A DNA stretch of 64,000 nucleotides from positions 1 through 64,000 of the IMG/VR virus record IMGVR_UViG_3300035663_000005. One strand, written 5' to 3'. Origin of the DNA: a virus. Made by a program: the position numbers and the translations under genes. Each line of letters starts with the position of its first letter. The stretch's first letter is position 1. This document shows, in pieces, positions 10,662-51,180 of this stretch. The notes beneath the pieces are model-generated. The model saw nothing but the letters and a program-made list of their open reading frames with translations. It was not told the DNA's origin and did no database searches.

Positions 10662-13652
10662 TCATTTCTCCGGATTGTGTCCCCAAATCTTAAGGGCTAG
10701 TAGTTTACGAGTTGGCTCACCTTTATCGTCACGAAGTGGGCCTTTGGCTCCCTTCATGCGGCTGATAAATGAAATTTGCTTGTTTGCCCATTTCCAGTCG
10801 CCTGCCTGCCAATCATCCTTTTTCTTGTCAAGCATTCGGACAATAGCACGAGCCGAATCGCGTCCCGAGGTAATCTTACCTCCACCAGTTCCTGCTTTAC
10901 CTGCTTCCTTACGAGACAAGCCTGCCGCTTTCCCATCTTCTGAATCTATAAAATTCTGAAGTTCTTTGGCTCCCATGTTCACAAGTTTAGACCATTCTTT
11001 GTAGATACGATCTTTTTCTTCATCATCAGTTTCTTCTGCGACTTGACCGGGTGTATCTTTAGCGTAAGTTTTACGAATCTTGTTGGTTCCAATTTCCAAC
11101 ACTTCTTTGTAAATCTTTCTGGCAAAACTGTTTTCATCGGTATGCTCATACATCATCCACTCAAACTCTTGTTCTAGAGTGGAGGAAACTTTAGGAGCGT
11201 GTTCCGCATACATGGCTCGCTTCTGTTCTTCGATATACACTTCCCATGCGGTTTGTTCTTCAGGGCTTCCTGCTTTAGCCTGCATATGACGAGCCTTTTC
11301 GATTCGGGTTGCAATTTTGTCGCAATCATCCAAGCGAACCGCCTCATCTAAAATTTCTTGCAGTTCAAATGCTTCTGCTTTGGTTCCAAACTTTTTCGCA
11401 AACGCTACAGAATACTTGGAACGGCGAGCAGTTTTTTCGGGGTCGCCTGGTAGTTTTTTCCAAGCCTTTGGGTCTGAATCGGAGCGAGCCTTACGAGCAG
11501 CGAACTGTTGAACTCTAGCCTTGGCATCCGCTCGGCTTAATCCTGAAACATATTTTTTAGGTAATCCTGTGCTTTTATCTTTTGGTGAAGCCTCTGCTTT
11601 TCCTTCAATCATTGCGAACTCCTCTGTTTTTGGTTCTGGTTTTGCAGCAGCCATATCTTTCGGATCAACCTGCATACCAGTTTGACGCAGGAATCTAAGT
11701 CCTATCAAAACTTTGTATTCCATGTGCTGCCTGTTAGTTAATGAAAACTTAACATTCTTGTATTCTCTGCCGCCAAATTCCACATCCATGAATACCACAG
11801 GACGAATTTCTCGTTCTTCGGTTCCGCCTCGCTTAATCTTGATTCGACTAGCGATATCTTTGGTGATGGTTTTATCGTTAATTTTAAAGGTTACAGTATG
11901 GTTCTTTTCGTTAATCTTGATATCTTTCGCATCAATAGAATTGTAACCGCTATTGCCGGTATCCACTTTCGCGTTGTATTCTACTCCATCAACCGTAATC
12001 TTTTCTGATACTGCAACATTACTGAATAGTTTCCAATTACTCTTGTTACTGACATGTTCAATCAAAGCATCCATCAGACCTTGACCTTCCACTTCTTTGG
12101 TTGGTTTGCCTCCATCGTATAGCGTGTAAACATTACCGCTACCAGGTGAAGCGTTCATCTCGATGATATAAGGTTTACCGTCAACTACAACATGGTCAAC
12201 GCCAACATAATAGCACTTACTCACAAGTGCAACCTTTTCTACAAGTTCAATCTCTTCTGGAGATAACTTGAATGCGCCCCCTGAGGAACCCCTAGCAATA
12301 TTTGTTCGGAAGTCTCCCTTAGCCTTGTCCCGCTTTGCACAAGCAAAAATCTTGCCATTTAATACGATGCTACGAACATCGTTCTTAAAGCCTGGCAGGA
12401 ACTCTTGCAGAATTACTTCTGCACCAAACTTCCACAGGGATTGTAGAACCGAGCGTAGTGACTTCTCGCTTTCAATAATAGAAACACCGATACCTTCTGC
12501 TCCTGTAACAGTTTTAACTACTACAGGATACTTGCCGCCGATAGCCTTCATCGCGTTTTCCACGGAGTCTTCATCGGAAACAAATGCAGTTCTTGGGTGT
12601 GGCAGGTTATACTTCTGAAGGGCAAGAGCGGTTTGCAATTTGTTTGCACACAACTCCATTGCTCCCTTCTCGTTAACCATGAACACACCGTTGTTTTGTA
12701 GAATAGTAGCCAAACCGATTCCTAGTTCGGAATTTATTACACCGCCACGCACAAAGCAAAGAGTGTCACGCGGGCTTATGGTAATCTTTTTCTTTTCTTC
12801 GCCTTCAGTAATCTGAATGACTATCTTATCACCATTGGCTTCCATCGGATTGATATGAGCATACTTCATCTTTACAGTATGGAATTCTATGCCCTTTTTC
12901 TTGCAAGACTTTTCCATCTTTTCAATAGATGAACCGTCTGTGCTGCCTTCAGCGGAAGTCAGACAAATCAGAGTTACATCAGATGACTTCTCTTCCCATA
13001 GCCATTCTTCCTTTAGTTGCATTCCCTTTTTCACAGCCATGAATATCTTCTTGGCATCCGCCTTGCTCACATGAGCAGGAACTCCCTTAAGGAACGCATC
13101 GTAATCGCCGTCAAACACCGCCTTACGCATCTTGGATGCCGACATGCCTTGCACACCTTCCGCATCAGGGTCGCGGTTGCCAGCACTAATCACCTTGAAG
13201 TCTGAGAACTTGTAGCCCTCGGTGCTTTTTGGGTCAAGGTCAATGTATTGCTTAATCTTGTTGTATTCCGCGATGTGGTCTGCGCCAGTCACAATGTGAA
13301 CGCGAGTATATCCTGCATCACTCAACTTTTGTGCAATAGCATAAGGTCCTGCAACTGTCTTGCCGTCCTTGTTTTGAAAAGGCTTTGGCATCAGTTGGAA
13401 CTTCATCTTCGGGAAGAACTTCTTTAAAGTCTCAAGTTTAGTTTTTGCGTCTAGCGGATTCTTCTTTGGGTCTTGCGAGTAGGAAGCGTAAACACAGAAC
13501 TCTGCACCAATCTTTTGTGCTTCGGTCATCACTTTGTTTACAAGAACTTCGTGCCCTGTAGTTGGAGGATTAAAGCGTCCAACGCCAATAACAATTGACT
13601 TTTCTTTCTTCGGGGCTTCGGTGATGACTTGTGAGAGTTTTTTCACTTCCAT
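10662..13652 (-). CDS. Fusion: nucleotidyltransferase + ATP-grasp peptide ligase + retropepsin-like protease
   Basis: A 996-residue multidomain protein. Residues 1-12 (MEVKKLSQVITE) are a short leader ending in ITE. Residues 17-210: NMNAT/cytidylyltransferase fold with GRFNPPTTGHEVL (TxGH) and MSASKMRKA (ISxxR-like). Residues about 224-540: RimK-like ATP-grasp with VVVKTVTGAEGIGV, VILQEFLPG and IIEMNASPGSG. Residues about 548-665: retropepsin-like domain of the RimB/RloA2 type with AKVDTGNSGYNS (DTG at 564-566) and VLIGLRFLRQTG. The C-terminal 330 residues have KYVSGLSRADAKARVQ and a GLSRKEAGKAGTGGGK tail of unknown type. RimK ligases add amino acids to protein termini; the pairing suggests writing and trimming of peptide tags. 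Roles are inferred. Confidence 0.85.
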   Translation of the reverse strand: MEVKKLSQVITEAPKKEKSIVIGVGRFNPPTTGHEVLVNKVMTEAQKIGAEFCVYASYSQDPKKNPLDAKTKLETLKKFFPKMKFQLMPKPFQNKDGKTVAGPYAIAQKLSDAGYTRVHIVTGADHIAEYNKIKQYIDLDPKSTEGYKFSDFKVISAGNRDPDAEGVQGMSASKMRKAVFDGDYDAFLKGVPAHVSKADAKKIFMAVKKGMQLKEEWLWEEKSSDVTLICLTSAEGSTDGSSIEKMEKSCKKKGIEFHTVKMKYAHINPMEANGDKIVIQITEGEEKKKITISPRDTLCFVRGGVINSELGIGLATILQNNGVFMVNEKGAMELCANKLQTALALQKYNLPHPRTAFVSDEDSVENAMKAIGGKYPVVVKTVTGAEGIGVSIIESEKSLRSVLQSLWKFGAEVILQEFLPGFKNDVRSIVLNGKIFACAKRDKAKGDFRTNIARGSSGGAFKLSPEEIELVEKVALVSKCYYVGVDHVVVDGKPYIIEMNASPGSGNVYTLYDGGKPTKEVEGQGLMDALIEHVSNKSNWKLFSNVAVSEKITVDGVEYNAKVDTGNSGYNSIDAKDIKINEKNHTVTFKINDKTITKDIASRIKIKRGGTEEREIRPVVFMDVEFGGREYKNVKFSLTNRQHMEYKVLIGLRFLRQTGMQVDPKDMAAAKPEPKTEEFAMIEGKAEASPKDKSTGLPKKYVSGLSRADAKARVQQFAARKARSDSDPKAWKKLPGDPEKTARRSKYSVAFAKKFGTKAEAFELQEILDEAVRLDDCDKIATRIEKARHMQAKAGSPEEQTAWEVYIEEQKRAMYAEHAPKVSSTLEQEFEWMMYEHTDENSFARKIYKEVLEIGTNKIRKTYAKDTPGQVAEETDDEEKDRIYKEWSKLVNMGAKELQNFIDSEDGKAAGLSRKEAGKAGTGGGKITSGRDSARAIVRMLDKKKDDWQAGDWKWANKQISFISRMKGAKGPLRDDKGEPTRKLLALKIWGHNPEK

Positions 13653-17552: not shown

Positions 17553-17580
17553 AGTATACCCCAAATCCCCGAAAAGTCAA
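17553..17580 (-). promoter_or_regulatory. Sigma70-like promoter of gp41
   Basis: TTGACT, 16 nt, TATACT on the minus strand, 21 nt before the gp41 ATG at 17531. Early-type promoter separating helicase from the carbohydrate island. Confidence 0.75.
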
Positions 17581-18044
17581 GCAAACTTTTTCTGACAATC
17601 GTAGATAAAATCCGAGCAAACTGCCCCAAAACCAGTTTTGTTGTAAGCGGCTACAGATTCTTTAGAAAGAAGAGGAATGATACATTCGGAATTCATATCA
17701 TTTGTTAAATCGTGTGACCAAATCCAACCATTACTTACGAGAGTATATCTGTCAGACTCGTGGCAAAAATGTCTAAGAACTCGCATTAAAGATCTTTGAA
17801 AAATCCATTTGAGAGCGGCGTATTCCTTGACATGAATCCAAAGATATTCACGGCGTTGCCAAAGCCACTCCTCGGTCACAGGATACTGAGCGTAATCGTG
17901 ACCTAGATGGGGTTGTTCGTTTTTCATACGCAGATCTATCTCTACATCATAGCCTGCATCAATGGCTTCTTGAATGTAATCCAATGAGTTTTCACGCTCG
18001 GGAATAACTCCGTCAAGATTGCCTCGGTGTGAAATGTAAATCAC
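17577..18044 (-). CDS. GDPD-like phosphodiesterase domain protein
   Basis: A 155-residue protein starting at GTG 18044 (SD GAGGA; GTGA overlap with the upstream stop). HRGNLDGVIPERENSLDYI, VEIDLRMKNEQPHLGHD carry the His, Glu-Asn, EID and GHD residues of the glycerophosphodiester phosphodiesterase TIM-barrel active site. It is much shorter than full GDPDs (about 240 aa), so only a minimal barrel is present. Last gene of the carbohydrate operon; it may hydrolyse a phosphodiester-linked sugar or polyol intermediate. Substrate unknown. Confidence 0.7.
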   Translation of the reverse strand: MIYISHRGNLDGVIPERENSLDYIQEAIDAGYDVEIDLRMKNEQPHLGHDYAQYPVTEEWLWQRREYLWIHVKEYAALKWIFQRSLMRVLRHFCHESDRYTLVSNGWIWSHDLTNDMNSECIIPLLSKESVAAYNKTGFGAVCSDFIYDCQKKFA

Positions 18045-18343
18045 GATAATTCCTCGATTCTAATACTACGGTCTTCAATAAACATGTCGTAATACGGTTT
18101 GTCGCAGCGCAGATCATGGTGCTTTGCGCCCCAATCCTCTAACTGTTGCTTGGTTAGATCATACCAATCTATTCCACTTCGACTACCTCTAGCCGTCCAA
18201 TAAATGATAGTGTTACCTTTATCATATAATCTATTGATCTTTTCTATGTTTTCAGGAATAGGCTTTGCCTTCTTATACTCCCGAGGATGGTCAGGAGTAA
18301 TGCAAATCGTTTCATCAATGTCAACAAATATGATTTTAGTCAT
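18041..18343 (-). CDS. HAD-superfamily phosphatase
   Basis: A 100-residue protein. IIFVDIDETICI is HAD motif I (DxDxT), YWTARGSR motif II, and CDKPYYDMFIEDRSI supplies the Lys and acidic motif IV. Short HADs of this kind occur in capsule and LPS loci, dephosphorylating sugar phosphates. Overlaps the sugar nucleotidyltransferase gene by 8 nt and is GTGA-coupled to the GDPD-like gene, so the three probably act in one pathway. Confidence 0.85.
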   Translation of the reverse strand: MTKIIFVDIDETICITPDHPREYKKAKPIPENIEKINRLYDKGNTIIYWTARGSRSGIDWYDLTKQQLEDWGAKHHDLRCDKPYYDMFIEDRSIRIEELS

Positions 18344-19160
18344 TGTGATACGAGTCCCAATACAGATAGCAGTTAATCAGATCATCTACAGACTTTACCT
18401 GCTTTCCTCTGGTTATAGTTGCCCAAGCCTCAAAGTTTTCAACTTCTTCAGGAGTTCCAAATACGGTTACGAATGGGGTATCGTAGTAACCAACCTTTAA
18501 ACCATCTTGAATCAGCAGATTGTATACCAAAGTAACATAGAATTCTCCATTATACTGAACTCCCCTCTCCATAGCAAGATCAAAATATTTCTTGATGTCT
18601 GCACCACACCTAAAGTAATACATGCCAGTAGAAGCATGTTCATTCATCGGATTGTCGGTATAACAAGCCTTTTCTTTAATCTCAGTAATGTATGGAGTTC
18701 CTGGCACATCTTTAACAAACGCCATCTTTGTTTGAGCCAAGGTATGTGGATGAAATCCTGTGTGCGTTAAAACGCAACCGTCCATATTGTATTGTTTAAC
18801 ATACTCCTTAAAATGTTCCATGTCCCAAATGTGAGGATTGTCGCAGTAAGAAACAATTACTTCTTCGTCATCTTTGATATGTTCGTATACTGCTTTAACC
18901 GTCCACACAGGGCCCAACTTATGCTGAGGCATGGATACAATTGTAGCGTTCGGCTTTAGAGATAGAAGCACATCTCGCATATCAGTTGTTGCTAGATGAG
19001 TATCATTACAGATGAATACAATTTCATCGTTTGGATCAAACATTTCTAGAATGTATTCGATGATGCGCTTTCCGTTCACACGAATAAGCGGCTTAGGATC
19101 TGTGTATCCCTTTTCAACAAACCGGTTTCCTGTTCCTGCCATCGGCACAATAATTTTCAT
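18336..19160 (-). CDS. Sugar-1-phosphate nucleotidyltransferase
   Basis: A 274-residue protein. MKIIVPMAGTGNRFVEKGYT, DPKPLIRVNGKRIIEYIL is the G-x-G-x-R...PK signature of NTP-dependent sugar nucleotidyltransferases; VIVSYCDNPHIW supplies the metal-binding Asp. It activates a sugar or polyol phosphate as an NDP derivative. It overlaps the HAD phosphatase and the kinase-aldolase fusion (4 nt), so a kinase, aldolase, transferase, phosphatase sequence is likely. Nucleotide and sugar specificity cannot be read from the sequence. Confidence 0.88.
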   Translation of the reverse strand: MKIIVPMAGTGNRFVEKGYTDPKPLIRVNGKRIIEYILEMFDPNDEIVFICNDTHLATTDMRDVLLSLKPNATIVSMPQHKLGPVWTVKAVYEHIKDDEEVIVSYCDNPHIWDMEHFKEYVKQYNMDGCVLTHTGFHPHTLAQTKMAFVKDVPGTPYITEIKEKACYTDNPMNEHASTGMYYFRCGADIKKYFDLAMERGVQYNGEFYVTLVYNLLIQDGLKVGYYDTPFVTVFGTPEEVENFEAWATITRGKQVKSVDDLINCYLYWDSYHND

Positions 19161-20563
19161 ACTAAAGCCTTTCTATATTTCTCTGAAGGCATATTGTTCA
19201 GAGATTCAATTTCATCTGCATTTAAAAATTTAGGAGTTAAACATGCTCCTGTCATCAGACCTAGTATGTAGTTGTTGATTGACTGCATTTCGTTTGGAAA
19301 TACGGCAGCATCAGGAAAAAGTGGAGAGTTTGCTGTTTCATTTTCTTCTGTATCAACAAACGATTCAACATGATTACTTAACCACCTTTTACATCTACTG
19401 TTAATTCGCTCCGTAGTTTCAAACGCTTCTTGTGCATCCTTAGCCGTAACAATAAGTCCATGATTTTCAAGAAAAAACACACTCTTATCTGTGGAAATTT
19501 TAGACATCAAACAAGAGCCAGGCTTAACATATTCCACATACTCGTATGTCATATCAGAAAATAAATTAGCAATCAAGGACTTGCCTTCTTTGCTGCATAA
19601 AATTGCATTCAAGTGAATTGGGTGTGTATGAATCACCACTCGGTCTGCTAGCAAAGCATGAAATCCAGTTTCCATAGATGGTCTATACTCGCCTGTTTTG
19701 TTTGAACTTCGAACCCAATCGGTGTACTCGTCTTCGGTTTGAAATTCATTTGGTATAGATTTATTAAAGTTGCACACGCAAAATCCGTGATGTAGATTGA
19801 CATCAGCCATTTTAGCGCCAGATGCTTTAATAAGTAAGCCGCTATCAGACTTCACGGAAACATTACCTCCTCTACCTTGAACTAATGCAGGATCGAGAGA
19901 TAACCATTTACAGATGCTCATAAAGTCCATCATGGAATCGTAGAACTCTTTAACAGTTTCCAACAACTCCACTCCTCTACCGTTAACAGAAACATAGTCT
20001 AAAGAAATAGAAGCATTTCGGTTGCGAGTAAACTTGATAACGATATCTGCTTCTTTCTTTTGAACTGTTATGAAGCGATCTTCATCAATCTTTCTACGCT
20101 TCATCATCTCTACTACTTGCTTCTCGGTGTATCCTCTTTTTTTAGTATCTCTTTTAATTTTCCACTCGGTTTTTAGAGTTTCATCTGTATCAACGAAAAT
20201 TTTAAGAGTTGCCATATCTGCGGTTGGTCTGTGATACAACGCATGAAGACCCTCGTACACAACCCAAGGTCTTGGAGAAATCATTGCCGCAGAATCAAAC
20301 TTACCAGTATCGTGATTATAAATCTTTCGGTTTATAGAGTTTCCGTTGGACAATTCCAACAAATGACCATACCCCATTTCAAGATCATTTGATTGAGGAT
20401 CTAGGTGAGTTTTGATTTTCCACATGGGATCATTTCTTTCCCATCGGTGCAGATCATCTCCACTAAGACATAAACATTCTTTAGTTCCAAGAATAGACTG
20501 TATCAGTTTTGAAACAGTAGTTTTACCTACCCCCGAACTACCAGAAATACAAATCAATTTCAT
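19157..20563 (-). CDS. Fusion: P-loop kinase + class II aldolase
   Basis: A 468-residue protein. Residues 1-190 are a uridine-kinase/phosphoribulokinase-like P-loop kinase: GSSGVGKTT at 8-16, SGDDLHRW, VVYEGLHALY, and basic lid RDTKKRGYTEKQ. Residues 205-440 are a class II aldolase/epimerase (AraD/FucA family): QGRGGNVSVKS at 229-239, ETGFHALL with Glu298, HTHPIH at 312-317 and a later ENHGLIV. The zinc histidines are all present. The fusion suggests phosphorylation and C-C bond cleavage or formation on the same sugar. ATGA-type overlaps on both sides. Confidence 0.85.
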   Translation of the reverse strand: MKLICISGSSGVGKTTVSKLIQSILGTKECLCLSGDDLHRWERNDPMWKIKTHLDPQSNDLEMGYGHLLELSNGNSINRKIYNHDTGKFDSAAMISPRPWVVYEGLHALYHRPTADMATLKIFVDTDETLKTEWKIKRDTKKRGYTEKQVVEMMKRRKIDEDRFITVQKKEADIVIKFTRNRNASISLDYVSVNGRGVELLETVKEFYDSMMDFMSICKWLSLDPALVQGRGGNVSVKSDSGLLIKASGAKMADVNLHHGFCVCNFNKSIPNEFQTEDEYTDWVRSSNKTGEYRPSMETGFHALLADRVVIHTHPIHLNAILCSKEGKSLIANLFSDMTYEYVEYVKPGSCLMSKISTDKSVFFLENHGLIVTAKDAQEAFETTERINSRCKRWLSNHVESFVDTEENETANSPLFPDAAVFPNEMQSINNYILGLMTGACLTPKFLNADEIESLNNMPSEKYRKALV

Positions 20564-21486
20564 AACATTCCTGCAATACTTAAAATTTGTTTCAATGAAC
20601 TTTCAATTTTATCAAAAGACACAATTATATCATCCATTGATGCTACTGGCCCAACAGAGTGAAAATCAATGTATTCATTTGTTTTTAGTCGTTTCAAATC
20701 AACAAAAGAATAGTTCGTACCATCCCAATTACATCTGTCTATTCTGTTCCACAAATAAGGATTAGCATTAACAACGGGAAAATTTGAACCAAGAAAATTA
20801 ACCTTGTTAGTTCTAATGGCATTCCACAACATAGTGGATGAATAACTTTCATCCGCACACCAAAAAGGTTCCATAGAATGTTTACTTCCTAGAAAGTTCA
20901 TACTATTTGCTATTTGTTTTGGAGACATTGACATATATTCTTCAGATATGTTTCTTCCATATATCTTTTGAGAAACTATACTGTTAACATAATCTATAAA
21001 ATCAATAGAACCACATTTGTAAACAGAATCAAAAATCTTTCCTTTTGCTAAATGATAATAAGCCGGAAGATTTTGTCCTCCCGTCAATTCGCTACCATTA
21101 GTTTCAAAATAAGCAGAAGGATTGTGTCTAGTTTGATGTCTACACGCTAAATGAACATAAGAGTCATCTGAAATTTGCGTTATTGTAGATTCAAAATATT
21201 TTTTTTGTAGTGGAAAAAGGTCAATATCTCCTATCAACCATGTTGTATCTGGTTCTGTGCTTGTGTGATAAAATTTACTCCAAGTCATTTGAAGAGATTT
21301 TATTGCATGTTCTGAATATTTCATTTCAATAACTTCACCATGAGTATCAGTAACATTAGTATTTTTAACTTCTCCCCAAAGTAGTAAAACAGGAGTTACT
21401 CCAAGTTTACTCCAAACCTTTGATTGATAGTTCCAAAAAGGACTATATTTTTCAGAAGAAGAAAAAACAATCTTATCAATCTTCAT
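20560..21486 (-). CDS. GT-A-like glycosyltransferase, paralogue A
   Basis: A 308-residue protein. The ATG at 21486 overlaps the upstream stop (ATGA); the longer reading from 21552 runs through the upstream gene. It begins MKIDKIVFSSSEKYSPFWNY and carries WLIGDIDLFPLQ, a DxD-like motif in a GT-A context, then YYHLAKGKIF and FWCADESYSS. About one third identical by eye to the next gene (SPFWN, GDID, HxAKGK, ADESY). No known family named with certainty. Likely transfers a sugar made by this operon. Confidence 0.65.
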   Translation of the reverse strand: MKIDKIVFSSSEKYSPFWNYQSKVWSKLGVTPVLLLWGEVKNTNVTDTHGEVIEMKYSEHAIKSLQMTWSKFYHTSTEPDTTWLIGDIDLFPLQKKYFESTITQISDDSYVHLACRHQTRHNPSAYFETNGSELTGGQNLPAYYHLAKGKIFDSVYKCGSIDFIDYVNSIVSQKIYGRNISEEYMSMSPKQIANSMNFLGSKHSMEPFWCADESYSSTMLWNAIRTNKVNFLGSNFPVVNANPYLWNRIDRCNWDGTNYSFVDLKRLKTNEYIDFHSVGPVASMDDIIVSFDKIESSLKQILSIAGML

Positions 21487-22391
21487 ATCATGCCTGCTTT
21501 CTCTAAAATTTTCATCATGGCCTTTTCTTGCTCGTGATAGGGGCGATGGCAATGGAGATCCATGTATCCTTTATTGCGAAGTTTAACCTCGTCATAAATG
21601 TAATCTTCACCTGTCCATTGTTTAATCCATTTTCCGTTTGAATCCACCAATCTTCCCACTCGGTCAATTTTTTGTTCCCACATATGGTACTCTTTTCCAA
21701 AAAAATCTTTTATATACCCCCGGCGTAAACCATACCATATTTGTTCTGTTGTATAACTTTCTTCTGCAACCCAGTAATTTCCGTGTATTTCTTTACTCAA
21801 CATACGCAAATGTTCTTCAGAGCGCATTCCATATTGAGGAGAATCTATAATGTAGCGTAAAACATCTTCAAAAGATTTTTTATTAAAAAACAAATCTCTA
21901 AAAAGTTTTCCTTTTGCTACATGATAGTGACCTGGAAAATCATACCCCCCATTAACACAAGCACCAACTTTAAAAAATGAATCTGGAGATAAACCAGGCA
22001 TTCCATCAGTTCTAGTAGTTTTACGCATTTGAGCAGTTAGCGTATAATTTAAATGTGCGTAACCATCATCAGAAACACTAGGTAAATCATTTAAAAAATA
22101 CTCTGTTTGTAGTGGAATTTGATCTATGTCACCAATAATCCATGTAGTTTCAGGCTCTGTTATTGGATGATAAAATTTATAAAACTGAATTTGAATTATA
22201 TCTGGTAAAGTTTTATCAAATTTTCTTTCAATTACTTCACCATATTTTTCAGATAAATTACAATTTTTTTTATCACCAAATAAAATACAAACAGGTTCTA
22301 CATCAAATTTAGTTTTCCAAACCTCTGATTGTATGTTCCAAAATGGGCTAAATGTTTCAGAACAACTAAAAATAACTTTATCAATTTTCAT
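21483..22391 (-). CDS. GT-A-like glycosyltransferase, paralogue B
   Basis: A 302-residue protein starting MKIDKVIFSCSETFSPFWNI, the paralogue of 20560-21486. Shared elements: SPFWN, TTWIIGDIDQIPLQTEYF, HYHVAKGKLF and WVAEESYTTEQIW. GDID probably binds metal and the nucleotide sugar. The C-terminus ends LHCHRPYHEQEKAM. Both copies are AT-rich, unlike the nucleotidyltransferase genes, suggesting separate acquisition. Confidence 0.65.
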   Translation of the reverse strand: MKIDKVIFSCSETFSPFWNIQSEVWKTKFDVEPVCILFGDKKNCNLSEKYGEVIERKFDKTLPDIIQIQFYKFYHPITEPETTWIIGDIDQIPLQTEYFLNDLPSVSDDGYAHLNYTLTAQMRKTTRTDGMPGLSPDSFFKVGACVNGGYDFPGHYHVAKGKLFRDLFFNKKSFEDVLRYIIDSPQYGMRSEEHLRMLSKEIHGNYWVAEESYTTEQIWYGLRRGYIKDFFGKEYHMWEQKIDRVGRLVDSNGKWIKQWTGEDYIYDEVKLRNKGYMDLHCHRPYHEQEKAMMKILEKAGMI

Positions 22392-22994: not shown

Positions 22995-23873
22995 TTAACT
23001 CCTTATTAATTTTGATAGTGAAGAAATAACGCTTCTTTTGTACGGTTCTGGAATATTCTGAACACACGCATCGTCAATAAGGTGTATGTTGTTTACATCT
23101 CCGCCATGTTGATATGCAAAATCTTTAACTGCCCAAACTTTGTTTGAATCCATGAACATCGTAGACCCCAACCATCTTATACAATGGTCTCCCCACCTTT
23201 TGTAAAAGATGTTGTTGGTGTTTTCCAAATATTTGAAATAATTTTGATAATTTTCAGAACGATAGAAATCCATATCAACAATTTCAAAATTTGTATTATA
23301 AACTTCTAAATTCCAATCAAAGTTTTTATTTGTTAGTTTTTTATAATTTTCTTCCATAAACTTTTTGGTAGTTTCCCACAATCCTTCACAAGCCCAAGGA
23401 GCATCATATCCTATATTTTCCATATGCGCGTATTGATACTCATTTTCTCTCATGGTAACAAAAGGATCTTTAGTAATTTTTGTTAAAATAAAAGAATCAG
23501 AATCCAATCTCATGTACCACTTATATTTTTCTAGAGAAGGATGATTGAAAATTTGACCGCCATAAAAACGGCACATATGTCTGTAACCCATTCTAAACTG
23601 ATCTAGTGATGGACTGTATAAACTTGGGTCTGAAGAAATTCTTTCTGGCAAAATAAATTCTAGTTTTTCAAACTTTATACTCGGCATAAATCCTAGAGAC
23701 AAATTTATTTCTGTTAAAAGATTTGTTATGTCTATTTTTGTTAAATCATCATAAAAAACTATAACAGGATAATTTGCTTCTCTGTTAAAATTTTTATATA
23801 AAAAATTTATACTGTGTTTAAAAACCCACAGGTCATTTTTTCGTGTCATGTATACGATTGCAGCATTTTCCAT
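22995..23873 (-). CDS. GT15-like (KRE2/MNT1) mannosyltransferase, copy 1
   Basis: A 292-residue protein. MGYRHMCRFYGG at 95-106, then YMRLDSDSFI at 121-130, YNTNFEIVDMDFYRS and FYKRWGDHCIRWLG match the glycolipid 2-alpha-mannosyltransferase family GT15 (yeast Kre2/Mnt1), where the YRHMCRF and N-F-E-I blocks are hallmarks. No membrane anchor, unlike the Golgi enzymes, so cytosolic in the host. Very AT-rich. SD GAGGAAT. Expected to move mannose, or a similar sugar, onto an acceptor made by the island. Confidence 0.82.
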   Translation of the reverse strand: MENAAIVYMTRKNDLWVFKHSINFLYKNFNREANYPVIVFYDDLTKIDITNLLTEINLSLGFMPSIKFEKLEFILPERISSDPSLYSPSLDQFRMGYRHMCRFYGGQIFNHPSLEKYKWYMRLDSDSFILTKITKDPFVTMRENEYQYAHMENIGYDAPWACEGLWETTKKFMEENYKKLTNKNFDWNLEVYNTNFEIVDMDFYRSENYQNYFKYLENTNNIFYKRWGDHCIRWLGSTMFMDSNKVWAVKDFAYQHGGDVNNIHLIDDACVQNIPEPYKRSVISSLSKLIRS

Positions 23874-24629: not shown

Positions 24630-25589
24630 TTATTCCCCCCAATTCAACCAATCGGGGCCACCTGCTCTATATCTATTCAAACCAAAAGTGATTCTTTCTA
24701 GACGACTGTAACGATGTTGAAGATTTCCATCAACCAAGTTCATAATCTTCTCGGGAATTTCCTTGTTGGGCAAAGCACTCATGTTGCGTATCCAAGCATT
24801 GTGCTGATAGGTGATATCGCTCACCGCCCAAACCTTGCTTGGGTCTAACAACATCTTTACACCTAGCCAATGGATTGGAGCATCGCCCCATCTCTTATAG
24901 AAGATGTTGCCTGTCTGATCCAACTGGTCAAAGTATGCCATATACTTTTCGCTTCTAAAGAAAGAGAACTTGGCAATTTCAAAGTTTGTGTAGAACAACC
25001 GACAACTCCACTTTCCGTCAACCATGCTGTCTTCAAGGTCTTTAGTCATCGGAATGTTGTGAGCCTTCATAAATCGCTCAGTTTCATCCCAAAGTCCTTC
25101 AGCAACGCTTGGAACTTCTCCATCTTCGGTTGCCATGAAAGCATATTCTTTATCATTCTTTGCCATGTATTCAAATGGATCGTAATTGATTGGCGAATAG
25201 ATGTAAGAATCAGAATCCAATCTCCAATAGTAATCATACTTCAGCAGGCGAGGATCGCGGTAAATACCACCTGAATGATAACGGCACATGTGGCGATATC
25301 CCATCCAAGCCTGATCCAAAGGAACAGTATACTTTGCTGGATCTTCCGAAACCCATTCGGGCATTACGAAATCCAAATGTTCAAACTTCAAATTTGGAAT
25401 GAATCCCAAGTTCTTGTGAAGTTCAACCATTAGATTGGAAATAGTTCCCTTGTCTATATCGTCGTGGAAAACAACGATTGGATATTCTTGAATATGCTTG
25501 AAATTCCATCCAAGCATACTAAGACTGCGATACAAAAGAGGAACATCCCTCATGCGTGACATATAAATTATTGCAGCATTTTCTGCCAT
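24630..25589 (-). CDS. GT15-like (KRE2/MNT1) mannosyltransferase, copy 2
   Basis: A 319-residue paralogue of 22995-23873. MGYRHMCRYHSGGIYRD, YYWRLDSDSYIYSP, LFYTNFEIAKFSFFRSEKYM and FYKRWGDAPIHWLGVKM are the GT15 blocks, here even closer to the fungal pattern (ERWGDAPVH). It is less AT-rich than copy 1, suggesting it is better adapted to the phage or acquired separately. Both begin AENAAIIYMSR / MENAAIVYMTR, indicating duplication from one ancestor. Confidence 0.85.
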   Translation of the reverse strand: MAENAAIIYMSRMRDVPLLYRSLSMLGWNFKHIQEYPIVVFHDDIDKGTISNLMVELHKNLGFIPNLKFEHLDFVMPEWVSEDPAKYTVPLDQAWMGYRHMCRYHSGGIYRDPRLLKYDYYWRLDSDSYIYSPINYDPFEYMAKNDKEYAFMATEDGEVPSVAEGLWDETERFMKAHNIPMTKDLEDSMVDGKWSCRLFYTNFEIAKFSFFRSEKYMAYFDQLDQTGNIFYKRWGDAPIHWLGVKMLLDPSKVWAVSDITYQHNAWIRNMSALPNKEIPEKIMNLVDGNLQHRYSRLERITFGLNRYRAGGPDWLNWGE

Positions 25590-45219: not shown

Positions 45220-45291
45220 AGCCATCTGTGGGATTCGAACCCACGACCTCCAGATTACAAATCAGGTGCACTACCACTGTGCTAAGATGGC
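45220..45291 (-). tRNA. tRNA-Thr(TGT)
   Basis: 72 nt. Acceptor GCCATCT/AGATGGC, anticodon loop TTTGTAA (TGT), T arm GTGGG-TTCGAAT-CCCAC. CCA not encoded. Confidence 0.93.
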
Positions 45292-45296
45292 GAAAG

Positions 45297-45369
45297 TAGT
45301 CCCTATAGGATTCGAACCTACAACTTCTTCCGTGTAAAGGAAGCACTCTAGCCGTTGAGTTAAGGGACT
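45297..45369 (-). tRNA. tRNA-Val(TAC)
   Basis: 73 nt. Acceptor AGTCCCT/AGGGACT, anticodon loop TTTACAC (TAC), T arm GTAGG-TTCGAAT-CCTAT. Confidence 0.93.
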
Positions 45370-45374
45370 ATTAG

Positions 45375-45456
45375 TGTCGGTGGAGGGAGTCGAACCCACA
45401 CGCCTTGCGGCAAAAGAACCTAAATCTTTCGTGTATGCCAATTTCACCACACCGAC
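45375..45456 (-). tRNA. tRNA-Leu(TAG)
   Basis: 82 nt, class II with long variable arm (TGCCGCAAGGCGT). Acceptor GTCGGTG/CACCGAC, anticodon loop TTTAGGT (TAG), T arm GTGGG-TTCGACT-CCCTC. Confidence 0.92.
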
Positions 45457-45462
45457 TATTTC

Positions 45463-45996
45463 TTACTTCTTGACTTTGGTTTTCTTTTCCTTCTTTGCCA
45501 AAGACTTCTTAACCTTGGCAACCATTTCCTTCAGTTCAGGAGGAGAGAATGCGTTTGTCTTCAGTAGATCGTTTCTTCGCTTCTCTTCTTCCTTCTCTGC
45601 CTTCATTTCTCTGGCCTTTTCCCCACTATCAAGTTGCTTGCAGTATTCAACGAGAGCAGCCTGACATTCTGCTTCGTTAACAAAAGGCCCGTGAAACTGT
45701 GCCCATGTTTCATCCCAAAAAATCCAACCTGAATGCTTGGGAGAATACTCTACAGGATCGTGACGACCGATAGCAATGTATCCCTTCTCACTTGCCTTGG
45801 GCTTACTCCACTCGCACATTACCTTTTCGGTATTCTTGACCCACAGTTCAACATCAAAATCAAACGGGTAGTGCTTTAGCAAATCACGAGCCTGCTTGCG
45901 AATTGCATCCTTGCCCATCTTGGTGTTGCCCATAAGTTCCTTCAGAAATTCTGAAGTCTTAACAACTGCCCAATAAGATTCATATGGTAGCGTCAT
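45463..45996 (-). CDS. Unknown protein with charged C-terminus
   Basis: A 177-residue protein from ATG 45996 (SD AAGGAG). KTSEFLKELMGNTKMGKDAI, RKQARDLLKHYPFDFDVELW and GYIAIGRHDPVEYSPKHSGW, IFWDETWAQFHGPFVNEAEC (a compact beta sheet plus helix) precede a Lys/Glu-rich coiled-coil tail (KAREMKAEKEEEKRRN ... KKSLAKKEKKTKVKK). No family recognised. It overlaps the small membrane ORF at 45980 by 17 nt. Confidence 0.75.
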   Translation of the reverse strand: MTLPYESYWAVVKTSEFLKELMGNTKMGKDAIRKQARDLLKHYPFDFDVELWVKNTEKVMCEWSKPKASEKGYIAIGRHDPVEYSPKHSGWIFWDETWAQFHGPFVNEAECQAALVEYCKQLDSGEKAREMKAEKEEEKRRNDLLKTNAFSPPELKEMVAKVKKSLAKKEKKTKVKK

Positions 45997-46177
45997 GGTA
46001 TAGTTTCTCCTTCCTACGAGACTGTCGCTCGTAGGCTTTAAATAATCCTTCACTAAATCCGGCATGCTTGCCGTGACCGTATCCTTGAGAATACGCCCAA
46101 GTATATAACTTGATTTGTGAGGCTGCGAATGCGGAAATTGCCGAAACGATGAAAAAGATTGTTGCTATTGTTTCCAT
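45980..46177 (-). CDS. Small membrane protein
   Basis: A 65-residue protein; true start METIATIFFIVSAISAFAAS at 46177 (the longer frame crosses tRNA-Leu). One N-terminal transmembrane helix (residues 5-20), then YTWAYSQGYGHGKHAGFSEG and a basic tail. The Gly/His-rich YxxGYGxGxxxG pattern resembles other tiny phage proteins, including 51452-51658. Function unknown. Confidence 0.7.
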   Translation of the reverse strand: METIATIFFIVSAISAFAASQIKLYTWAYSQGYGHGKHAGFSEGLFKAYERQSRRKEKLYHDATI

Positions 46178-46213
46178 ATCATTAGTTATAGTATAACACA
46201 ATCTGAACAAAAG

Positions 46214-46299
46214 TGCGAGAGGTGGGATTCGAACCCACACGCCTTTAGAGGGCAGCGGATTTTGAATCCGCCGTGTATGCCAATTCCAGCCACTCTCGC
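46214..46299 (-). tRNA. tRNA-Leu(CAA)
   Basis: 86 nt, class II. Acceptor GCGAGAG/CTCTCGC, anticodon stem GCGGA/TCCGC with loop TTCAAAA (CAA), variable arm TGCCCTCTAAAGGCG, T arm GTGGG-TTCGAAT-CCCAC. Confidence 0.93.
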
Positions 46300-46305
46300 A
46301 AACAG

Positions 46306-46378
46306 TAGGACTGATGGGATTCGAACCCATACTTTGCGGATTTTAAATCCGCTGACTCTGCCGTTGGTCTACAGTCCC
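46306..46378 (-). tRNA. tRNA-Leu(TAA) anticodon on a class I body
   Basis: 73 nt. Acceptor GGGACTG/CAGTCCT, anticodon stem GCGGA/TCCGC with loop TTTAAAA (TAA), variable loop only AAAGT, T arm ATGGG-TTCGAAT-CCCAT. Bacterial tRNA-Leu is class II, so this short-variable-loop body with a Leu anticodon is unusual. Confidence 0.85.
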
Positions 46379-46387
46379 GTCAAGTAT

Positions 46388-46415
46388 AGTATACTGTCTA
46401 CTCCAACAAAGTCAA
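46388..46415 (-). promoter_or_regulatory. Sigma70-like promoter in the tRNA cluster
   Basis: TTGACT, 16 nt, TATACT on the minus strand, directly upstream of the class I tRNA-Leu(TAA). Drives the tRNA group at 45220-46378. Confidence 0.75.
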
Positions 46416-46434
46416 GCACAAAATAATTTTAAAA

Positions 46435-46506
46435 CTGGCTCGGCTGGATTCGAACCAGCAACCTATCCGTTAACAGCGGATCGCACTACCGTTGTGCTAC
46501 GAGCCA
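46435..46506 (-). tRNA. tRNA-Asn(GTT)
   Basis: 72 nt. Acceptor TGGCTCG/CGAGCCA with discriminator G, anticodon loop CTGTTAA (GTT), T arm GCTGG-TTCGAAT-CCAGC. Confidence 0.93.
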
Positions 46507-46511
46507 ACTTT

Positions 46512-46664
46512 TTAAATTTGCTTTTCTCGCTTAATCCAAAGTGGAAGAATACCACGCTCTTCAAGTTTACGAAGAGTTTCCTTCTTTGCATTAAGTAGCA
46601 GTTCCTGTCGCTTCAAGCGACGAGATTCATAACGACGCTTACGACGACGACGAAGTTCTCTCAT
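46512..46664 (-). CDS. Small Arg-rich protein
   Basis: A 50-residue ORF: MRELRRRRKRRYESRRLKRQ, then ELLLNAKKETLRKLEERGIL and PLWIKREKQI. Very basic N-terminus, amphipathic helix, then a short hydrophobic end. It overlaps the 3' end of 46639-47274; an in-frame ATG at 46676 is an alternative start. Possibly an RNA- or DNA-binding peptide. Codon use (CGT-rich) looks translated. Confidence 0.55.
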   Translation of the reverse strand: MRELRRRRKRRYESRRLKRQELLLNAKKETLRKLEERGILPLWIKREKQI

Positions 46665-47274
46665 TTTGTCTATCATTATCTAAACCTTTCTTCTTCATAA
46701 GATGCTTCACCCAAATTTCAGTTACAGTCATTGGATGATGGAATTCCTCAAACTTGAAACCACTAATTGGCTCCTTGTTCTTGGTCTTGAGTGCAGTATA
46801 GATGCCGTTGAGTCGGTTAGGCTTGAACTCACCAACAGGTTCTTCCTTACCTAGACCAGGCCATGCTTCTGCCTTGGTTCCGATTACCAATCCTTGTGGA
46901 GATGCAGGCGACTTAAAGAATATGGCATCCTGCTCATACTTTGCGCCCATCTTCTTGGCAAAGCCTTTGATGGCTCCGCTCTTTGTTGGAGTGGCATCAT
47001 CTCCGATAATCATAAAAGACTCTTCAGTAACACGACGCTTCTTGCCGTCACCAAGGTCTTCTTCGTAAGTGCCAACAACTTTCTCAAAACCAAAACCTGC
47101 TGCACGAATATCATTCTCCAACTTCTTGTTGAGTCCACGATTCACCGACAGCGAATTGCTGCCACGAAACGCGGTAAGCAAAGCAAACGGTCGCTTCTCA
47201 ACATGTGAGAACACGCGAGCAAGTGAGATTTCTGTAATCAATTCTTTTCGATAGGTTTCAATTTGTTCAGACAC
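46639..47274 (-). CDS. DUF3293-like protein
   Basis: A 211-residue protein. KRPFALLTAFRGSNSLSVNR, GLNKKLENDIRAAGFGFEKV, EESFMIIGDD and FAKKMGAKYEQDAIFFKSP follow the pattern of a small bacterial and phage family (DUF3293: aromatic/Leu-Thr-Ala, N-R-x-LN, SFxIxG, Q-AI-F). Function unknown. The C-terminus (KHLMKKKGLDNDRQNERTSS) overlaps the Arg-rich ORF. Overlaps the 47267 gene by 8 nt. Confidence 0.65.
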   Translation of the reverse strand: MSEQIETYRKELITEISLARVFSHVEKRPFALLTAFRGSNSLSVNRGLNKKLENDIRAAGFGFEKVVGTYEEDLGDGKKRRVTEESFMIIGDDATPTKSGAIKGFAKKMGAKYEQDAIFFKSPASPQGLVIGTKAEAWPGLGKEEPVGEFKPNRLNGIYTALKTKNKEPISGFKFEEFHHPMTVTEIWVKHLMKKKGLDNDRQNERTSSSS

Positions 47275-47452
47275 TTGTGGCTCCCCTGATTTCTTCTGTA
47301 GATTGTTTTAGTGACAAGTAAACTTTTCGTATCTCTTCAAACGCTTGCGATGCGGTGAACTTGCCTTCCAATTCCCACTCAACAATACGAGCAGTTTTGC
47401 GGGCTAGTTCTCCAATGTTCGCATGTGCTGCGAAGTCTTCAATCTCCATCAT
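47267..47452 (-). CDS. Small helical protein
   Basis: A 61-residue protein: MMEIEDFAAHANIGELARKT, ARIVEWELEGKFTASQAFEE, IRKVYLSLKQSTEEI. Two or three helices, acidic. SD GGAGAAAA. A promoter at 47518-47546 lies upstream. No family recognised. Confidence 0.7.
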   Translation of the reverse strand: MMEIEDFAAHANIGELARKTARIVEWELEGKFTASQAFEEIRKVYLSLKQSTEEIRGATSV

Positions 47453-47517
47453 TTTTCTCCGAATGCGACTTGCTGTAACCGCTCCAACAAGTCTGGTAAA
47501 GTTAAGGTATAGTGTTT

Positions 47518-47546
47518 AGTATACCGTCACTTTCCCTTCGGTGCAA
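47518..47546 (-). promoter_or_regulatory. Sigma70-like promoter with inverted repeat
   Basis: TTGCAC, 17 nt, TATACT on the minus strand. The -10 overlaps an inverted repeat GGTATA-N8-TATACC (47506-47525). Upstream of the 47452 gene and over the 3' end of the small basic ORF. Confidence 0.55.
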
Positions 47547-47661
47547 TTTTTTTATTTGCTTTCCGCTTTTTCTTAAAAATTGCGTCCCAATTCTTTGACC
47601 ATAAAGCGTAATCCACCTTACGGTATCTATCTCCCTTGCCTGCTGCATGCTTGCCGCTCAT
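47527..47661 (-). CDS. Small basic conserved phage protein
   Basis: A 44-residue ORF. MSGKHAAGKGDRYRKVDYAL, WSKNWDAIFKKKRKANKKIA. The pattern GKGDxYRxVDxxxxxxNxDxIF is common in tiny phage proteins. SD CCAGGAGACGAT supports it. Function unknown, perhaps RNA binding. Confidence 0.75.
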   Translation of the reverse strand: MSGKHAAGKGDRYRKVDYALWSKNWDAIFKKKRKANKKIAPKGK

Positions 47662-47766
47662 ATCGTCTCCTGGTGGCTTGAGAAGGTGATTTGGTGAACA
47701 GGTAGACCGCAGTTTCCTGCATCGCCAATAGCATCAATTATAAAAACCTTCAGTTCGCCTAAATCT

Positions 47767-48003
47767 TTAAAATTGTGCAAGGCGGTCAAGTGCTTCGTTT
47801 GCAGTTCCCCACCGCTTACGCCATGCCTTCCAACGAGTGAATGCGTTACGAAGACTTGGCGTAGGAGGATTCTCCATTGCTTCAAACAATCGCTTCGCGT
47901 CTTCAGGAGACATGGCATTCAATCTCCACTCCATCTCAGCAGAATTCATCTGATTGAGTGGAAGATTCAAAAATTCTTTAACACGGTCAAAAGGTTCAGT
48001 CAT
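47767..48003 (-). CDS. Unknown small protein
   Basis: A 78-residue protein from ATG 48003 (SD TTGGAG); the longer frame runs through tRNA-Pro and is wrong. MTEPFDRVKEFLNLPLNQMN, SAEMEWRLNAMSPEDAKRLF, EAMENPPTPSLRNAFTRWKA: helical, with a basic aromatic WKAWRKRWG segment. No family recognised. Confidence 0.75.
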   Translation of the reverse strand: MTEPFDRVKEFLNLPLNQMNSAEMEWRLNAMSPEDAKRLFEAMENPPTPSLRNAFTRWKAWRKRWGTANEALDRLAQF

Positions 48004-48019
48004 TTTATATACTCCAAAG

Positions 48020-48094
48020 TCGGGGTGATAGGATTTGAACCTACGACCTCCTGCTCCCAAAGCAGGCGCACTAGCCAAACTGTGCTACACCCCG
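48020..48094 (-). tRNA. tRNA-Pro(TGG)
   Basis: 75 nt. Acceptor CGGGGTG/CACCCCG, anticodon stem CCTGC/GCAGG with loop TTTGGGA (TGG), T arm GTAGG-TTCAAAT-CCTAT. Confidence 0.94.
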
Positions 48095-48098
48095 AGAA

Positions 48099-48170
48099 AG
48101 CGGGTAGAGGGATTCGAACCCTCGGCCTTTGGTTTGGAAAACCAATACTCTACCGCTGAGTTATACCCGC
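48099..48170 (-). tRNA. tRNA-Gly(TCC)
   Basis: 72 nt. Acceptor GCGGGTA/TACCCGC, anticodon stem TTGGT/ACCAA with loop TTTCCAA (TCC), T arm GAGGG-TTCGAAT-CCCTC. Confidence 0.94.
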
Positions 48171-48191
48171 AAAAAGTCCGAGCCATTATAG

Positions 48192-49250
48192 TTAGGTGAA
48201 AATGGTATTGAGTTGACGGTTAACTCGGACAAATGTTGTGCATTTTGGCAAGTCCTTCAGGCGAGCAGCACCCACATAAGTGCAAGCCGAACGAACTCCA
48301 CCAAGAATTTGTTGCATCACGCCATCCACAGGACCAACAGGCTTCACATGAACCCGCTTACCTTCTGCGGCACGATATTGTGCAACCCCTCCTGAATACT
48401 TTTCCATTGCAGTAGCGGAACTCATGCCGTAGAACTCCTTGCCGTCTTCGGTTTCCTCACCTGCGGCTTCATCAGTTCCTGCAAACATGCCACCAATCAT
48501 AACAAAGTCTGCGCCTGCACCGAATGCCTTGGCTACATCACCGGGGCAGGTGCACCCACCGTCCGAAAGCACATAGCCACCTAGTCCGTGTGCGGCATCA
48601 GCACACTCCATGATGCACGACAGTTGCGGGTAGCCAACACCTGCAACCTTTCGTGTGGTGCAAACCGAGCCAGGCCCAATTCCAATCTTGACAATGTTCG
48701 CACCTGCAAGAATCAAGGCTTCAGTCATTTCTCGTGTCACCACATTACCTGCAATCAGAATATGATTAGGAAAAGCCTCACGAATAGTTTGCACATACCG
48801 CACAAACTTTTCAGTATAGCCGTTAGCCACATCCACACAGATAAACTTGATGGACTTGTGGCGATTCAGAATTCGTTCAGCCTTTTGGATTTCTTCCATG
48901 CTGGAATTCATATCACCCATACCGATAGTATACACCACATTGGTAGACCAATTCAAATGACTACTTGCCCAATTATTCATAAACTTATCCCATTCTGCTT
49001 CCGTGTAATACTTGTGAATACCACACAGCGCAGCGTACTCGCTAAGACTATCAGCCATTTCAAATGTACCAACAGTATCCATGTTGGCTGCAACAATTGG
49101 CACACCAGTCCAAGTTTCTTCATTTTTATTTGGAAGTTTAAATACAAATGTGCGAGACACATCAACCTTGCTACGACTATCAAGATTGCTGCGCTTTGGG
49201 CGAATCAGCACATCAGCGAAATCCAACTTTACATCGTCTTCAATCTTCAT
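48192..49250 (-). CDS. guaC: GMP reductase / IMP dehydrogenase-family enzyme
   Basis: A 352-residue TIM-barrel protein. [66 protein letters not shown] with catalytic Cys197, [20 protein letters not shown] and [14 protein letters not shown] follow GMP reductase more than IMPDH; there is no CBS pair and the length fits GuaC (about 347). GuaC converts GMP to IMP with NADPH. Phage copies are rare and may rebalance purines for dATP. SD TAGGAG and a late-type box upstream. Confidence 0.9.
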
Positions 49251-49267
49251 GTTGTAAACTCCTAAAC

Positions 49268-49274
49268 TATTTAG
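49268..49274 (-). promoter_or_regulatory. Late-type box CTAAATA before guaC
   Basis: CTAAATA right after the tRNA-like RNA and 17 nt before the guaC ATG (SD TAGGAG between). Confidence 0.5.
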
Positions 49275-49378
49275 ACGGGGATGCGGGAATCGAACCCGCC
49301 ACTAATGAATTATCCGGAATATTTTCATCAGCGATTCTACCGATGGTTGTTACTCCTTCAACCAAAGAACTCTCCCCA
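49274..49378 (-). ncRNA. tRNA-like RNA of uncertain identity
   Basis: The 3' end is tRNA-like: T arm GCGGG-TTCGATT-CCCGC followed by ATCCCCG, which pairs with TGGGGAG about 100 nt upstream. In between, instead of a normal cloverleaf, lie three hairpins: GGTTG/CAACC, CATCGG/CTGATG and CTGATGAA/TTCATTAG with a 14-nt loop. The last two share CTGATG and exclude each other. Could be a tRNA with an insertion, a decayed class II tRNA, or a novel tRNA mimic. Exact ends are estimates. Confidence 0.5.
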
Positions 49379-49549
49379 TAAAAGAAAGGCGGTAGACCTG
49401 ATGCTCTCTAGTGGCCATCTAGAAGAAACATCCAACTACGCCTCTTTGTTTGCCACCGCACACTATTCTTCCTGCCGTTAGTGGGCAGGTAGGTGGGTGA
49501 GAGCAACCAAAGTTTTTGATGGGGTTAACAATCCCACCAAGGTTTTAAG
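49379..49549. other. Non-coding stretch between tRNA-like RNA and tRNA-Glu
   Basis: About 170 bp. A hairpin CCTGCC-7 nt-GGCAGG lies in the middle and short direct CACC/CCTACC runs beside it. On the minus strand a 22-codon ORF from ATG 49427 runs into the tRNA-like RNA, too short to call. It may be part of one longer RNA with the tRNA-like element. Confidence 0.4.
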
Positions 49550-49621
49550 TGACCCCAACGGGACTCGAACCCGTGTCAGAAGAGTGAAAGTCTTCGATCC
49601 TTGCCGCTAGACGATGGGGCC
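49550..49621 (-). tRNA. tRNA-Glu(TTC)
   Basis: 72 nt. Acceptor GGCCCCA/TGGGGTC, anticodon stem GAAGA/TCTTC with loop CTTTCAC (TTC), T arm CGGG-TTCGAGT-CCCG. Confidence 0.94.
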
Positions 49622-49633
49622 TAGAACAACTAT

Positions 49634-49661
49634 AGTATACTCAAGAGTTGAACTGTGTCAA
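49634..49661 (-). promoter_or_regulatory. Sigma70-like promoter for tRNA-Glu and downstream RNAs
   Basis: TTGACA, 16 nt, TATACT on the minus strand, 12 nt before tRNA-Glu and overlapping the last codons of the gmd gene. One of the best promoters in the window. Confidence 0.8.
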
Positions 49662-50699: not shown

Positions 50700-50724
50700 T
50701 ATATTAAATCCTCACATTAAAAAG

Positions 50725-51087
50725 TTATTGCAAACGAAGCAGATATTTTGTTTGGTTTAAAACTCCAATCATTTCGTCACGAATATTTAAAAGGTCGGTA
50801 TCGTTTGTCGCATCCAACTTTTGTGGCATTTCGTGTGAAAGATAGTAGATGGCGTTGTTAATCACGCCCAAAGAGTTTGAGTCCTTATAGTTGTTAACAT
50901 TGAAACTAAAACTTGGATTGCCTAAAGTGTTGCCGTATTTGCCTGTGTGGACTTCCATAAACTGGTCAATCAATCCATCAAGCCCTTCATAAGCCTTTCC
51001 TAAAGCCTTATGCTCGGCATAAGACTTGGTTTGCCAGTGAAGCACTCGCAATTGAGATTGAAGTTGTAGGAAGAAGGTTACGCACAT
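50725..51087 (-). CDS. DUF5856-like protein
   Basis: A 120-residue helical protein. FFLQLQSQLRVLHWQTKSYA, EHKALGKAYEGLDGLIDQFM, EVHTGKYGN match a family (DUF5856) common in large phages and giant viruses; the HW..T.S..EH spacing recalls Dps/ferritin-like four-helix bundles. TATACT ends 5 nt before the ATG and there is no SD, another possible leaderless gene. Function unknown. Confidence 0.8.
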   Translation of the reverse strand: MCVTFFLQLQSQLRVLHWQTKSYAEHKALGKAYEGLDGLIDQFMEVHTGKYGNTLGNPSFSFNVNNYKDSNSLGVINNAIYYLSHEMPQKLDATNDTDLLNIRDEMIGVLNQTKYLLRLQ

Positions 51088-51105
51088 AGTCTAGTATATA
51101 TTAAA

Positions 51106-51180
51106 AGGTCGGAGTGAGATTTGAACTCACGAAATCACGGATTTGCAATCCGTTCCCTTAAGCCACTTGGGTATCCGACC
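51106..51180 (-). tRNA. tRNA-Cys(GCA)
   Basis: 75 nt. Acceptor GGTCGGA/TCCGACC with discriminator T, anticodon stem ACGGA/TCCGT with loop TTGCAAA (GCA), T arm GTGAG-TTCAAAT-CTCAC. Confidence 0.94.

Follow-up and report, generated by a model that had tools for sequence, protein, structure and literature searches.

Environmental phages carry a phosphoribulokinase-like kinase fused to a class II aldolase in a putative glycan cassette

The described proteins closest to the kinase analyzed here are the class II phosphoribulokinases (PRK; 6hzk from Synechococcus, 5b3f from Methanospirillum, profile NF005655) and the structures labeled "cyanobacteria specific PRK" (9qkn, 9qko, and 9qkp). In the archaeal enzyme from Methanospirillum (MhPRK), the residues contacting ribulose-5-phosphate (Ru5P) and ATP are R59, Y98, H100, H55, K151, and R154 (PMC5241800). 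For the aldolase, the reference proteins are class II aldolases of the FucA/RhaD type (including NF006190 and NF053831), and among them the bifunctional aldolase/short-chain dehydrogenases of NF006190 carry the aldolase as N-terminal domain with the dehydrogenase after it. Enzymes of the second kind take part in the non-carboxylating pentose bisphosphate pathway of haloarchaea, in which ribulose-1,5-bisphosphate (RuBP) is produced during nucleoside breakdown by a ribose-1-phosphate kinase and an R15P isomerase, a RuBP phosphatase yields Ru1P, which is then split into DHAP and glycolaldehyde by a class II zinc aldolase of the FucA type (PMC9700705). Among phages, the glycan island of the Synechococcus phages S-SM2 and Bellamy contains two nucleotidyltransferases (A and B), a GT61 glycosyltransferase, a class II aldolase, a small HAD protein, and a GDPD-like protein; its aldolase stands alone, and no PRK-like kinase was detected in the stretch examined. 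For an island of SAR11, a GDPD and a class II aldolase have been mentioned, but not the kinase-aldolase cassette described below (PMC12421898).

The window analyzed here, a 64,000-nucleotide stretch of an 86,727-base IMG/VR virus record, contains on its minus strand an open reading frame (19157-20563) for a 468 aa protein that joins a kinase to a class II aldolase. The first-pass annotation had read this two-domain architecture from the letters alone, and profile and structure comparisons bore it out. Residues 3-181 (20021-20557, minus strand) form the kinase domain, recognized by PF00485 (PRK/uridine kinase, E = 1.2e-38, above the curated cut-off), by NF005655, and by the PDB entries 9qko and 6hzk, and residues 215-394 (19382-19921, minus strand) form the aldolase domain, recognized by PF00596 (Aldolase_II, E = 4.7e-19; 69.4 bits against a gathering score of 22.2). 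Between them lies a linker (residues 182-214; 19922-20020, minus strand) with a strand and a helix in the AF2 secondary structure, which occupies the place of the phosphoribulokinase C-terminal region, and the protein ends in a conserved tail (residues 395-468; 19160-19381, minus strand) running from FPDA to SEKYRKAL. The AF2 model of the whole protein had a mean pLDDT of 92.8 and a pTM of 0.90, and Foldseek matched its first domain to PRK structures (9qkp, 4e-20) and its second to the class II aldolase 3m4r (5e-13).

Scans of IMG/VR returned 64 loci, 62 of which hold both domains, the other two being contig-end truncations. As kinase and aldolase share one uninterrupted frame in all 62, and sequence-identical copies of the fusion occur in other IMG/VR datasets (loci L001 and L003), the fusion is not an artefact; a frameshift or assembly error was ruled out by the open frame in these independent or near-identical loci. 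Several of the loci are near-duplicates, so that the independent phages number fewer than 62. The fusion is thus not unique to the phage of the window and recurs in dozens of environmental phages. No near-identical phage record was found for the window, and the phage-collection match to the fusion protein was a single 2-kb record with 30% identity across 27% of the query.

The kinase domain carries a P-loop (GSSGVGKT, residues 8-15) followed by the motifs DDLHRWER (36-43), YNH (82-84), EGLH (104-107), and WKIKRD (134-139). It shares with the PRK structures the fold, the P-loop, and the DDxH...R, YNH, and WKIxRD motifs, with about 28-36% identity across the kinase domain, and its EGLH is as in 6hzk. 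Among NCBIfam profiles it matched the phosphoribulokinase NF005655 at 5.8e-56 and udk at 1.7e-25, and is therefore nearer to phosphoribulokinase; the score stayed below the curated NF005655 cut-off (190 vs 236 bits) and covered only profile positions 10-191 of 326. The PRK C-terminal region is absent from the phage kinase, whereas the kinase of the cellular relatives presented below extends the match to position 259. The score was also below the cut-off of the uridine kinase equivalog TIGR00235 (89.9 vs 220.3 bits).

The MhPRK contacts R59, Y98, H100, H55, K151, and R154 correspond to R43, Y82, H84, H39, K135, and R138 of the fusion, and all six are found in every viral and cellular cassette kinase compared. 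Two of them, H39 and K135, follow the PRK pattern and not that of uridine kinases (UDK); where all cassette kinases have His39, the UDK-length proteins have Tyr. On the other hand, the fusion kinase lacks the equivalent of MhPRK Arg62, a second phosphate arginine that is less conserved among PRKs: the position holds P46 in the fusion, varies among cassette kinases, and is occupied by Arg in the PRK-length proteins used for comparison. All 47 cassette kinases share three further residues, W41, W48, and H53, which the PRK-length and UDK-length proteins of the comparison lack, giving the subfamily the signature DDxHxWxR...W...TH. In a maximum-likelihood tree the viral kinases formed one clade (96/94) within a cassette clade (99/96) that included the cellular GT-C-fused kinases, apart from the 6hzk-type PRK, the 9qko group, and the UDK-length proteins. 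The retained contacts, the lost Arg62 equivalent, the three cassette-specific residues, and the separate clade together indicate that the kinase is a distinct PRK-like subfamily with a predicted alteration of the acceptor pocket; with no counterpart of Arg62, and with W41, W48, and H53 invariant only in the cassette kinases, the acceptor may not be Ru5P. The uridine-kinase-like domain of the first-pass annotation needs correcting in this respect: identity as a uridine kinase is ruled out by score, by the residues His39 and Lys135, and by the tree. Annotating the cellular gene as a "uridine kinase" or as a "phosphoribulokinase" masks this distinct subfamily.

The aldolase domain has the Zn(His)3 site, catalytic Glu, GGNVS phosphate-site motif, and fold of the FucA/RhaD-type enzymes: GGNVS at residues 232-236, catalytic Glu298 in PSMET, H312 and H314 in HTHP, and H368 in NHG. 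The full set of zinc histidines that had been read from the sequence was confirmed, and E298, H312, H314, and H368 do not vary among 35 viral homologues of 35-100% identity and line up with the corresponding motifs of the aldolases 3m4r and 1pvt in an alignment that also included 2opi. Both domains of this viral fusion thus carry intact catalytic residues, within a conserved cassette. The phage aldolase has a kinase before it, unlike the NF006190 proteins with their dehydrogenase after the aldolase, and falls far under every equivalog cut-off; its match to the Ru1P aldolase NF053831 was weak (4.9e-8; 32.7 bits against an equivalog cut-off of 300). Near-invariant residues of the C-terminal tail are P417, D418, E461, K462, and R464, and the separate cellular aldolases finish in a similar way (MQSEKYR, MGSEKYR, or WDAEKYR). 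In one near-identical contig (L008:8001-9380), an in-frame deletion of nine residues removes Glu298, a loss that reflects natural inactivation or else a mistake in assembly.

Cellular relatives of the two domains were found in SAR86, Rickettsiales, Aenigmatarchaeota, Woesearchaeota, and others. There the kinase is the C-terminal portion of a polytopic membrane protein of about 700-890 aa, the membrane part of which matched no Pfam family and appears GT-C-like, resembling GT-C glycosyltransferases, while the aldolase has its own gene nearby, which can be several kb off. Direct fusion was seen in 0 of the 10 cellular loci holding both genes; in profile searches of about 1,550 sampled cellular genomes, no single match covered both domains; and the viral patterns, which miss divergent cellular kinases such as those with DDYHLWDR, gave no cellular fusion when run against 84,980 species. 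The direct kinase-aldolase fusion therefore appears virus-specific among what was searched. The earlier remark that no common enzyme has this domain order is consistent with the sampled genomes and with the literature, as nothing relevant on the combination of the two domains was found in the papers searched. The pairing itself is old, since cells carry both parts within one cassette; the parts were already known, and what is new is the fusion variant built of them.

The cellular cassette comprises the aldolase, two nucleotidyltransferases (often one polypeptide), GtrA, GT2, a GDPD-like protein, the membrane-protein-kinase fusion, and a HAD protein. It was found in E. coli plasmid NZ_CP145712, Azospirillum brasilense p5, and Hirschia baltica pHbal01, in the latter two beside GT2, GtrA, and ABC-transporter genes. 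In these replicons, as in SAR86 and DPANN archaea, its kinase, aldolase, nucleotidyltransferase, and GDPD-like protein are homologous to those of the phages; it differs from the phage version in the GT-C-like membrane protein attached to the kinase, the lone aldolase gene, and a HAD of another family. The best NCBIfam match of the cellular HAD was by far the RuBP 5-phosphatase NF053830 (2.2e-49; next best 1.1e-27), below that family's equivalog cut-off (168 vs 330 bits). We regard this as an uncharacterised cassette for surface-sugar synthesis, widespread over bacteria and archaea; as far as the literature searched shows, both the cassette and its kinase subfamily are undescribed.

Directly downstream of the fusion in the window is a nucleotidyltransferase gene (RmlA/MobA-like; 18336-19160, minus strand; PF12804 at 3.2e-11, phrog_3980 at 7.3e-54), the start codon of which overlaps the fusion stop codon (ATGA). 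The two genes adjoin in 60 of the 62 viral loci, and in the remaining two the contig ends; in one locus (L020) the cassette genes are inverted. The tie between nucleotidyltransferase and fusion that the first-pass annotation proposed is hence seen in the gene order, while its further suggestion that the former acts on the product of the latter draws its support from this neighborhood only.

The next gene encodes a small HAD phosphatase (EcbF/BcbF-like; 18041-18343, minus strand) with the DxDxT motif FVDIDETI and matches to TIGR01689 (5.6e-6) and phrog_1238 (2.6e-29). It is present in 34 of the 62 loci, with no HAD detected in the other 28, and belongs to another family than the HAD of the cellular cassette. 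The small HAD is called "phosphoheptose isomerase" in S-SM2 (L039:9306-9617), Bellamy, and phrog_1238, a name that looks wrong because the DxDxT motif and TIGR01689 indicate a phosphatase. Beyond it lies the gene for a GDPD-like protein (17577-18044, minus strand; phrog_34507 at 1.4e-32), found in 59 of the 62 loci. Its score with PF03009 was below the gathering threshold (13.9 vs 23.6 bits), and a PDB search with its cellular counterpart gave no matches. At 155 aa it is far shorter than usual GDPDs, yet it keeps all the GDPD catalytic motifs (HR at residues 6-7, ExD at 35-37, and HD at 49-50), with H6, R7, E35, D37, H49, and D50 invariant in 23 homologues, cellular ones included. Eight of the fusion loci add a second nucleotidyltransferase (B) and a GT61 gene, which amounts to the gene set of S-SM2 and Bellamy. 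Immediately upstream of the fusion in the window are two overlapping paralogous genes (20560-22391, minus strand) for proteins of about 300 and 330 aa without assigned family.

We lean toward the view that the fusion works as a bifunctional enzyme making precursors for a glycan pathway encoded by the phage and running from kinase to HAD to aldolase to nucleotidyltransferase, as a compact version of the cellular cassette. The PRK-like domain would convert a sugar phosphate to a ketose bisphosphate, its substrate most likely being a pentulose phosphate (Ru5P or a close relative). A HAD phosphatase, encoded by a cassette neighbor or by the host, would strip the other phosphate, and the zinc aldolase domain would cleave the resulting ketose-1-phosphate to DHAP and a short aldehyde (glycolaldehyde if the substrate is Ru1P), or catalyze the reverse reaction. 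The adjoining nucleotidyltransferase would then activate the product of this short route for use by the glycosyltransferases of the island. From homology and gene order we infer the sequence of steps, the substrate, and the nucleotidyltransferase's own substrate; Ru5P as the kinase substrate is uncertain, given the apparent changes in the acceptor pocket. Kinase, HAD, and aldolase line up as three consecutive steps on account of the RuBP-phosphatase-like cellular HAD, the cleavage of Ru1P in haloarchaea, and the weak Ru1P aldolase match, and the near-constant presence of the nucleotidyltransferase and GDPD-like genes after the fusion argues for the glycan context. Against the proposal count the kinase score under the curated PRK cut-off, the S-SM2 and Bellamy aldolase with no PRK-like kinase detected in the stretch examined, the 28 loci with no HAD detected, and the fact that no known nucleotidyltransferase substrate is obvious from Ru1P, DHAP, or glycolaldehyde. 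The different family of the window HAD further weakens the strict form of the proposal.

That strict form would be the exact pentose bisphosphate route from Ru5P through RuBP and Ru1P to DHAP and glycolaldehyde. It would amount to the haloarchaeal pathway supplied by a PRK, and its glycolaldehyde or DHAP would go into a glycan. The haloarchaeal pathway resembles the cassette in its RuBP phosphatase-like HAD and class II aldolase, with RuBP as a conceivable common intermediate, and differs from it in having no PRK homologue as RuBP source and in serving nucleoside breakdown instead of glycan synthesis. Three enzymes homologous to consecutive steps and a kinase with conserved Ru5P-contact residues speak for the exact route, but W41, W48, and H53 in the pocket, the missing Arg62 equivalent, the different family of the phage HAD, and the want of both a reductase and an obvious nucleotidyltransferase substrate leave it doubtful. 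The same proteins could also act as an energy or salvage auxiliary metabolic function, turning ribose from degraded host nucleotides into DHAP and glycolaldehyde, as might be suggested by the nucleoside degradation role of the haloarchaeal counterpart. We consider this improbable, as the cassette sits amid nucleotidyltransferases and glycosyltransferases in phages and cells alike and the stretches examined yielded neither a nucleoside phosphorylase nor an R15P isomerase.

Alternatively, kinase and aldolase might serve different branches of one glycan pathway and be fused for co-expression only, with no metabolite passing between them. This would suit a cellular kinase that is joined to a membrane protein instead, an aldolase gene that is sometimes several kb distant, and the S-SM2 and Bellamy aldolase with no PRK-like kinase detected; the direct fusion in all 62 viral loci with both domains and the coherent chemistry of kinase, phosphatase, and aldolase make it unlikely in our view. 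Far less credible is a uridine kinase for pyrimidine salvage attached to an inactive, adducin-like aldolase fold: PF00485 does include uridine kinases, but the UDK score of 89.9 against a cut-off of 220, the PRK-type His39 and Lys135, the lack of grouping with UDK-length proteins, and the invariant catalytic residues of the aldolase all oppose it.

A wider reading of the favored bifunctional-precursor proposal, which we put forward only tentatively, is that an undescribed biosynthetic route spread across archaea, bacteria, and phages could employ a kinase homologous to PRK, a HAD resembling RuBP phosphatase, and an enzyme resembling Ru1P aldolase. It would pass through a ketose bisphosphate (RuBP or a relative) and end in a glycan precursor activated by a nucleotide, and the phages would have merged its kinase and aldolase in a single polypeptide. 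If so, RuBP-type chemistry would have a role besides CO2 fixation and nucleoside breakdown, and if the substrate were a ribulose phosphate, phages and surface-glycan loci would be putting Calvin-cycle-type chemistry to another use. The fusion joins two genes of a cassette present in DPANN archaea, SAR86, other proteobacteria, and T4-like phages, and as a soluble two-domain enzyme it is a far easier assay target than the cellular membrane fusion, which makes the pathway directly testable.

T4-type replication is represented in the window by genes for a DnaB-like helicase, UvsX, DNA polymerase, the clamp, and its loader, and the fusion lies within a block at about 17.5-32 kb, all on the minus strand, with glycosyltransferase, FkbM methyltransferase, epimerase, and aminotransferase genes. 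Inside this block, the gene at 22995-23873 (minus strand) matched PF01793 (Glyco_transf_15, glycolipid 2-alpha-mannosyltransferase) at 4.5e-42, a family known mainly from fungi and unusual in a T4-like phage, and the gene at 24630-25589 (minus strand) looks like its paralogue. Elsewhere in the window, a 996 aa protein (10662-13652, minus strand) has an N-terminal cytidyltransferase-like domain (phrog_3041) and, later in the sequence, a weak match to phrog_2599 (ribosomal protein S6 glutaminyl transferase), and 17 of the window's 18 tRNA genes lie within 45220-52879.
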